Origin: an alpha proteobacterium IMCC14465
GTDB taxonomy: Bacteria; Pseudomonadota; Alphaproteobacteria; RS24
Assembly (NCBI GenBank): GCA_000293845.2
Contig: ALYF01000003.1
Location: forward strand, 434,001 to 498,000
Direction: 5' to 3'
DNA length: 64,000 nt
A program made the translations under genes and the position numbers. Of the stretch, positions 13,463 to 14,612 are shown piece after piece (within the stretch, counting starts at the first letter, position 1; each line of letters begins with the position of its first letter). The notes under the pieces were generated by a model. That model made no database searches and was not told the origin of the DNA. It saw only the letters and a list, made by a program, of their open reading frames with translations.

Positions 13463-13518
13463 GACAGATTCATAAATAATTTATTGATTATTCATTATTT
13501 TGCACATAAAAATGTCAC

Positions 13519-14178
13519 ATGAGCGATTTGGACATGAACACCAGAGCGCAGATAATTCTGGCAGCAAAAGAACGTTTTCTTCATTATGGTTACCCTAAAA
13601 CCACAATGGCCGAAGTTGCTGCAGACTGCAATATGTCACCGGGAAATCTTTACCGCTATTTCAAGGGTAAACTTGATATAGCGATTGAAATTGCCCGCGA
13701 CGAGTCGATTATGACCGTTGACCGCTTGCGCCCGCTCATTGATTGCCCTGTTCGTTCGGCCCGTGAAAGACTTGAGGAAGTCATGTTCTCTAGTCTGAGA
13801 GAAAGTTTTCATAAGCTTGAAAATAAGCCGAAAGCGGTTGAACTGGCGCAGATTGTTTCAACGCAAAGGCCTCGTTTTTTATTAGAAAGCCTCCGCCGTG
13901 AGCGCCGTGTGATTGCTATCGTGTTGGATCATGGCCGAAAAACCGGTGAATTCTTAGTTGAAGACATCTCCAGAACGGCCGCCACCTTGCAGGCTGCGAC
14001 TATGAAGTATCACTATTCGCAGCTTTTCACGCATCAAACACTGCAAGATCTTGAGGTGGAATTATCGGCAATGTTGTCGCTTTTCTTCGGGGGATTGGCG
14101 AATAAGGATTATGAAGCGGATGAGCAAGATTCCGCATTAGAGGCGACTGAAATATCAACAAAATCTCTATCTTTGTAA
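13519..14178 (+). CDS. TetR/AcrR family transcriptional regulator
   Basis: A 219-residue regulator. The N-terminal TetR DNA-binding domain covers about residues 7-55: RAQIILAAKERFLHYGYPKT, then the helix-turn-helix with TTMAEVAADCNMSPGNLYRYF and the trailing KGKLDIA. The C-terminal helical part (MTVDRLRPL onward) would bind an unknown ligand and form the dimer. It is divergent from gpsA. TetR proteins usually control themselves and a neighbour, so gpsA or the small peptide gene downstream are candidates. The sequence after about residue 195 is acidic and poorly conserved in character. The ATG at 13519 is used, with M6 a shorter alternative. Confidence 0.9.
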   Translation: MSDLDMNTRAQIILAAKERFLHYGYPKTTMAEVAADCNMSPGNLYRYFKGKLDIAIEIARDESIMTVDRLRPLIDCPVRSARERLEEVMFSSLRESFHKLENKPKAVELAQIVSTQRPRFLLESLRRERRVIAIVLDHGRKTGEFLVEDISRTAATLQAATMKYHYSQLFTHQTLQDLEVELSAMLSLFFGGLANKDYEADEQDSALEATEISTKSLSL

Positions 14179-14319
14179 TATATTTGTCATAATATCTTAA
14201 ATATAATATCTTTTTTTTATAAAAAATTAAGTTTTTCATAAAATTATCCCATTTAATACAATGGGATATAAAACAAATGCGTTTTTTTGATAAACAATGA
14301 ATAAAAATCAAAATATTTA

Positions 14320-14349
14320 TTGTTTTTTATTTTTAGATATCCTATATTC
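14320..14349 (+). promoter_or_regulatory. Candidate sigma70-type promoter for the small membrane peptide gene
   Basis: TTGTTT (14320-14325) and TATATT (14344-14349) are separated by 18 bases in a very AT-rich stretch, 41 bp before the start codon at 14391. A match to the -35/-10 pattern only; the AT-richness makes chance matches likely. Confidence 0.4.
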
Positions 14350-14390
14350 ATAAGTGTCGAGAGCACAAATTGCTTTGAAAGGATATGACG

Positions 14391-14516
14391 ATGAATAACA
14401 AGTTCTTTAAATCTTTGAAGCAGTTTCTCAATGTACCAACACTGATTGCTGCTTTGCTTGCTTTATACGGCTTCGCGGTTCTGACACAGAACACTGCTGG
14501 CGGTTACCTAATTTAA
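14391..14516 (+). CDS. Small membrane peptide, 41 residues, unknown function
   Basis: I do not recognise this family. The ATG at 14391 is preceded by AAAGGA about 8 bases upstream. The reading frame gives a basic start (MNNKFFKSLKQF), one hydrophobic helix at about residues 15-32 (VPTLIAALLALYGFAVLT) and a short polar end (QNTAGGYLI). This is the shape of an inner-membrane single-span peptide with the basic N-terminus inside. A candidate promoter precedes it and a strong intrinsic terminator follows 45 bp after the stop, so it appears to be its own transcription unit between tetR and the convergent tsaD. It may be a TetR target or an accessory subunit of a membrane complex; neither is shown. 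Confidence 0.6.
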   Translation: MNNKFFKSLKQFLNVPTLIAALLALYGFAVLTQNTAGGYLI

Positions 14517-14560
14517 ATTTGCGAGATTCCCTCCCCTCGCAAGAGCCTGAAAAGGCATAA

Positions 14561-14594
14561 AACGCTGACGGACCCTCCCCCGTCAGCGTTTTTT
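14561..14594 (+). terminator. Intrinsic terminator after the small membrane peptide gene
   Basis: AACGCTGACGG (14561-14571) pairs perfectly with CCGTCAGCGTT (14580-14590) around an 8-base loop, and the stem runs into six T residues. It ends the small peptide unit on the plus strand, 18 bp before the end of the convergent tsaD. Confidence 0.92.
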
Positions 14595-14612
14595 CCTGTG
14601 AAATCCATTATA

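Follow-up and report, generated by a model that had tools for sequence, protein, structure and literature searches.

The tetR-peptide locus

The window, the whole stretch of 64,000 nt of DNA that was analysed, comes from a genome of 1.92 Mb. It contains a gene for a 41-residue peptide, which lies downstream of a gene for a TetR-family regulator and is followed immediately by a set of RNA hairpins (Table 1). An earlier note on this DNA placed the peptide gene after a TetR gene at a site where tsaD and gpsA are usually neighbours. The position is confirmed, but it is not a local oddity: the order gpsA(−), TetR(+), peptide(+), hairpins, tsaD(−) is found in every sufficiently long locus of relatives, and the TetR-peptide pair occupies this site in several other families as well. 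Between the end of tetR and the ATG of the peptide lie 210–416 nt (a range that leaves out one locus, L012), which argues that the peptide gene has its own promoter.

Table 1. Features of the tetR-peptide locus, numbered from the first nucleotide of the window
Feature	Position	Strand	Basis
22-bp dyad TAAATAATTTATTGATTATTCA, predicted TetR operator (autoregulation)	13473–13494		upstream of tetR; conserved in the loci read
Predicted tetR promoter, TTGATT-N17-TAAAAA	13484–13512	+	−35 box within the dyad; read from sequence
TetR-family regulator, 219 aa (TetR_N, TetR_C_27)	13519–14178	+	Pfam; fold and PDB relatives; syntenic orthologues
22-bp dyad TGAATAAAAATCAAAATATTTA, predicted TetR operator of the peptide promoter	14298–14319		nearly invariant in 20 loci
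Peptide promoter, TTGTTT (14320–14325), 17 nt, TATATT (14343–14348)	14320–14348	+	conserved block; start expected near 14355
Shine-Dalgarno sequence GAAAGGA	14377–14383	+	7 nt before ATG; sequence; genus-wide presence
Membrane microprotein, 41 aa, single helix	14391–14516	+	homologues; alignment; purifying selection; helix
C-loop hairpin 1, loop AUUCCCUCCC	14518–14543	+	fold; C-loop hairpins rare in source genome
Small middle hairpin GCCUGAAAAGGC	14545–14556	+	fold
C-loop hairpin 2 and terminator, loop ACCCUCCC, T6 tail	14559–14594	+	terminator scan; covariation

The peptide

The 41-residue frame (MNNKFFKSLKQFLNVPTLIAALLALYGFAVLTQNTAGGYLI) is almost certainly a coding gene. The earlier note had described it as an unrecognised gene with a good ribosome-binding site and a single clear membrane helix, and this is borne out. 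An alternative in-frame ATG at 14385 would give a peptide of 43 aa, and the ATG at 14391 appears the better choice in view of its spacing from GAAAGGA and its conservation in relatives.

Single-sequence and profile searches find homologues in 23 of the 28 genomes of the order, all of which belong to one family (the PS1-clade/‘Rhodobiaceae’ marine bacteria); the named relatives are MAGs that go under Rhodobiaceae, PS1 clade or Alphaproteobacteria. Four of the five genomes that lack the peptide are assemblies only 69–79% complete, and the fifth (G024) has an operator dyad 84 bases from a contig end. The misses are thus explained by incomplete assemblies or a contig edge. Within four genera the dN/dS of the annotated frame is 0.12, 0.23, 0.16 and 0.33, whereas pN/pS in the two alternative frames is 1.1 and 1.8, and the frame is therefore under purifying selection. 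Invariant positions in the alignment of homologues are a core ALYG and, further on, a T and a G.

The best 19-residue window of the peptide has a mean Kyte-Doolittle hydrophobicity of 2.0, and the AlphaFold model shows a helix at residues 15–40 with modest confidence; the hydrophobic stretch and the modelled helix agree on one predicted membrane span. Neither Pfam nor NCBIfam has a match for the peptide, and the search of viral contigs yielded no homologue. A profile search of 385 genomes of the class for distant homologues gave one weak partial match within a 279-aa open reading frame, which was judged to be due to chance.

The regulator and its predicted operators

The helix-turn-helix domain TetR_N of the regulator scores 43.9 bits in Pfam, against a curated cut-off of 24, and the predicted structure is a TetR fold. 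No ligand can be assigned from the structure, since QacR, DarR, FadR and others match it about equally well, and no orthologue with a known function was found. The protein resembles TetR-family autorepressors (PF00440) in its fold, its N-terminal helix-turn-helix and the dyad over its own promoter, but differs in that the predicted regulon consists essentially of tetR and the microprotein gene.

The upstream alignment of 20 loci shows a nearly invariant dyad of the type TGAATAA-N8-WTATTCA before the peptide gene, followed directly by TTGTTTTTT (−35) and then by CTATATA (−10). A dyad of equal length and with the same half-sites precedes tetR in 20/20 loci read. It covers a TTGATT that, together with a spacing of 16–17 nt and a TA-rich box, forms the best candidate for a tetR promoter. 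In the window, as in the relatives, this promoter would place the transcription start at or very near the ATG (13484–13519), and the tetR mRNA may be leaderless.

The promoter of the peptide gene, previously described as plausible, is too weak for a consensus promoter scan, and the block TTGTTT-N17-TATATT is nearly invariant in relatives. It reads as a sigma-70 promoter, and a conserved run of C residues ahead of the −10 box allows a possible sigma-32-like reading. The −10 box matches the alphaproteobacterial sigma-70 −10 sequence CTATAT (PMC10746234).

The strict form of the dyad is present in 19 of the 28 genomes of the order, mostly at the tetR and peptide sites, and only three further places were noticed in all; a reversed control pattern occurs 0–1 times per genome. 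Dyads in the genus of the source genome carry one base change each relative to the strict form. With a relaxed pattern, the source genome has four exact sites, two of which are the tetR and peptide sites. From this near-restriction to two sites we infer TetR binding, and the inference is a specific one; TetR very probably binds both dyads. Dependence of the peptide gene on TetR, which the earlier note had proposed to check, is thereby well supported at the sequence level, as the same 22-bp dyad is shared by both promoters and recurs in other families.

The hairpin array

The terminator after the peptide gene was earlier singled out as strong, and this holds: it has a 13-bp stem and T6, and the stem is the longest among 11 terminator-like sites on the plus strand of the window. 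The terminator is, however, only one element of a conserved array of putative anti-Shine-Dalgarno hairpins. The 87 nt of the 3′ region fold with −36.2 kcal/mol, compared with −14.3 ± 2.9 in shuffled sequences (z −7.6). Two C-loop hairpins with CCCUCCC loops are found in the source genome right after the peptide stop. Three sister genera have two to four detected C-loop hairpins, mostly three or four, with loops that vary around CCUCC(C), and the fold of the 3′ region at one sister-genus locus (L019) contains four (z −9.1). Pairing in the terminal hairpin is kept throughout the 18 distinct sequences: of its ten pairs, five have changes in both partners, and the CCUCCCC loop stays constant.

The hairpin and target statistics rest on a 464-kb sample of the source genome. 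C-loop hairpins occur six times in this sample, two of the six being the pair 3′ of the peptide gene, against 6–9 times in shuffles. This is the chance level, and the proposal that such hairpins represent a general terminator style of the genome was rejected. Also rejected was a minus-strand RNA with GGA loops (CsrA type). The T run is on the plus strand, and wobble pairs favour the plus strand 9 to 0, a count that leans toward that strand in a stem finder that allowed G-U.

The nearest Rfam family is alpha-r14 (RF02344). Its covariance model matches positions 14514–14595 with 31.3 bits, below the cut-off of 58.8, and none of the 28 genomes of the order reaches the cut-off (best 46 bits). A model of the array RNA gave six weak matches outside the family in a search across the class; those inspected have at most one CCUCC hairpin, and the matches were set aside as chance or ordinary terminators.

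Other C-loop hairpins were seen in the course of this work. Two sister-genus loci (L063:1501–1625 and L066:1501–1603) have a second, separate hairpin pair with CTCCTCCC loops and a T run; these pairs sit between two minus-strand genes and look like an independent alpha-r14-like RNA gene. Terminators with CTCCTCCC loops are also present at L068:1501–1612 (minus strand) and L069:692–808 (plus strand), 3′ of a long open reading frame whose C-terminal end resembles an outer-membrane receptor.

Relation to known small protein-RNA systems

The DUF1127 gene ccaF1 of Rhodobacter shares a transcript with four CcsR RNAs, and in alphaproteobacteria this kind of linkage is called CIN1 (PMC10253847). The peptide locus has a CIN1-type layout, i.e. 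a small open reading frame and then tandem C-loop hairpins and a terminator. As in ccaF1-CcsR1-4 of Rhodobacter sphaeroides, a small-protein gene precedes several homologous hairpin RNAs on one transcript that ends in an intrinsic terminator. The two systems differ in the protein, a single-helix membrane peptide here rather than a DUF1127 protein, and in the promoter, which looks like sigma-70 and carries a TetR dyad here and depends on RpoHI/RpoHII there. CIN1 loci are further marked by RNase E, which processes their transcript into separate RNAs. DUF1127 (PF06568), the usual partner of CcsR-like RNAs, was found in none of the 28 genomes of the order and the peptide has no Pfam match, so that DUF1127 was rejected both as its identity and as a partner.

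The anti-Shine-Dalgarno loops (CCUCCUCCC) of NfeR1, an alpha-r14 RNA of Sinorhizobium, silence mRNAs by pairing with ribosome-binding sites; NfeR1 is Hfq-independent, and its predicted targets are mostly ABC-transporter mRNAs (PMC10746234). SmelA075 and SmelA099 have three and four hairpins with anti-Shine-Dalgarno loops, respectively (PMC3927594). The array shares with these RNAs the several CCUCC-type loops, which stay constant as the stems vary. It differs from alpha-r14, which has three hairpins with CCUCCUCCC loops, in having two CCCUCCC hairpins (three or four hairpins in sister genera) and in its location within a 3′ UTR, that of a TetR-linked coding gene. By analogy with these RNAs, the hairpins probably act as an anti-Shine-Dalgarno RNA.

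SgrS/SgrT, a dual-function RNA with the adjacent regulator SgrR, also has its regulator gene next to a transcript from which both a small protein and an RNA that acts by base pairing arise. The regulator belongs to another family, SgrT is a soluble-type transport inhibitor as opposed to a membrane peptide, and the putative RNA described here lies after the open reading frame rather than overlapping it.

The cassette in other families

A TetR profile detects 24 good orthologues outside the family among 289 genomes of the class, most of them adjoining gpsA and/or tsaD. The dyad is upstream of TetR in 20 of the 24 loci. A second dyad, on the 3′ side of TetR, is present in 17 loci, which belong to nine other families (f4, f10, f54, f91, f99, f121, f123, f126 and f146). 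A −35 box is fused without a gap to this second dyad (TTGTTT in 15 loci, TTGATT in two), with a TATAT-like box 15–17 nt beyond. In 15 of the 17 these elements precede a ribosome-binding site and an open reading frame of 28–60 residues that contains a membrane helix, against 0.10 expected from shuffled sequence; the thresholds for this count were set after inspection of the loci, and the margin is large. The remaining loci, L128 and L129, also encode such a peptide but fail the ribosome-binding-site filter, so that a predicted single-helix peptide, of 30–52 residues, accompanies the dyad in all seventeen.

The dyad-TTGTTTT signature co-occurs with the TetR: it is present in 15 of 24 TetR-positive genomes, compared with 32 among the remaining 261 or so (Fisher p about 1e-7, an approximate value, as the signature search covered 385 genomes of the class and the TetR search 289, in slightly different draws). 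As judged from these sequence patterns, the arrangement of repressor, site and microprotein recurs in at least ten families of Alphaproteobacteria, the present one included.

The peptides of other families are divergent, and those of only one family clearly beat shuffled sequences with the PS1 profile. By eye, most keep a Y/F and then Q/E/N in and after the helix. C-loop hairpins are found within 200 nt 3′ of the peptide in 7 of the 17 loci, against 1.1 expected; the RNA part may therefore be confined to some lineages.

Several loci depart from the common arrangement. In L128, L135, L143 and L145, two different single-helix microproteins are encoded in tandem after the dyad promoter and could form a hetero-oligomer. 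In family f148 (L148 and L149) the TetR orthologue is followed by a gene like those for NAD(P)-binding epimerase-type proteins and no microprotein is present; in L149 a second dyad (2131–2152) precedes this gene. L138, L141 and L142 (f42) and L132 (f5) have the upstream dyad without a second dyad or a nearby tsaD, and the cassette seems to have been lost or moved.

Proposed mechanism and alternatives

The model we favour, with somewhat better than even confidence, is a cassette under TetR control with two outputs, the microprotein and an anti-Shine-Dalgarno sRNA from its 3′ UTR. TetR on the dyads would repress both the tetR and the peptide promoter, and a ligand or stress cue would lift the repression. 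The single derepressed transcript would then give a 41-residue inner-membrane protein as well as a 3′-UTR-derived RNA of tandem hairpins. As with NfeR1/alpha-r14 in Sinorhizobium, the CCCUCCC loops would pair with GGAGGG Shine-Dalgarno sequences and lower the translation of chosen mRNAs. The peptide probably works at the membrane, in the same response as the RNA. It may be a regulator or an accessory subunit of a membrane enzyme, as the earlier note suggested for genes of this sort, although nothing in the analysis points to a particular partner.

A less likely reading, but one to be taken seriously, is that only the peptide matters. TetR would control a small membrane protein, for instance one that modulates lipid metabolism or a membrane enzyme, and the hairpins would be a robust terminator that also protects the 3′ end. 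The last hairpin is indeed a good intrinsic terminator, and outside the family the peptide goes with every one of the seventeen second dyads, the C-loop hairpins with just seven. However, a terminator needs neither hairpins two to four nor a constant CCUCCCC loop amid changing stems, and C-loop hairpins elsewhere in the sampled genome are at chance level.

At the peptide gene the dyad immediately precedes the −35 box, and activation rather than repression is thus possible: its centre is about 46 nt before the predicted start, a position that activators also use. Still, it is improbable that TetR is an activator, or that another factor occupies the dyads, with the same outputs, as at tetR the predicted −35 box is itself covered by the dyad, in keeping with autorepression, and the dyad accompanies TetR into other families. 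Very improbable is a type I-like toxin, silenced by TetR and membrane-disturbing when derepressed, as its size, single hydrophobic helix, predicted tight control and the tandem peptides of some genomes might suggest. In contrast to mobile toxin modules, the gene occurs once per genome at a conserved place and in nearly all members of the family. No toxin family in Pfam or NCBIfam matches it, and a crude consensus scan of 14391–14600 shows no promoter-like site on the minus strand, where a type I system would have the promoter of its antisense RNA.

The cassette with two outputs can be extended, rather speculatively, to a response cassette of the whole class, in which a near-private TetR regulon yields the microprotein and, in some lineages, an anti-Shine-Dalgarno RNA, with the microprotein aiding the RNA in place of DUF1127/CcaF1. 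Perhaps the microprotein brings the RNA close to sites where transporters are translated at the membrane.

TetR autoregulation, small membrane proteins, anti-Shine-Dalgarno hairpin RNAs and operons of small proteins and sRNAs are all known kinds. No description of their combination, or of the operator-defined peptide family and its spread, was found among the open-access papers searched, nor did these contain anything relevant on a small protein that accompanies a gpsA/tsaD-linked TetR. Small proteins and 3′-UTR RNAs escape annotation. Here the operator-promoter signature marks peptides that are too short and too fast-evolving for homology search, and it is the regulator that leads to them. 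With a near-private regulon, one repressor knockout would turn on the whole output, which would open to direct test what the microprotein does and why Alphaproteobacteria repeatedly link small proteins to anti-Shine-Dalgarno RNAs.

Candidate targets

Transport and catabolic genes would be the likeliest targets of the hairpin RNA. Genes with a GGAGGG Shine-Dalgarno sequence were typed in the 464-kb sample, and eight well-formed open reading frames make up a raw list of candidates: two TonB-dependent receptors, an ammonium transporter (Amt), a P450, a zinc dehydrogenase, two SnoaL-like proteins and a DUF3604 protein. Predicted duplexes between the loops and these candidates have −12 to −15 kcal/mol, compared with −2 to −3 for tetR and the peptide gene. 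This raw list resembles the transporter-heavy set of NfeR1. At one place in the source genome (L084, C3:360001–380000), genes for a TonB receptor, a DUF3604 protein, a SnoaL-like protein and a zinc dehydrogenase, with GGAGGG Shine-Dalgarno sequences, lie within 20 kb, possibly as a co-regulated cluster of targets.
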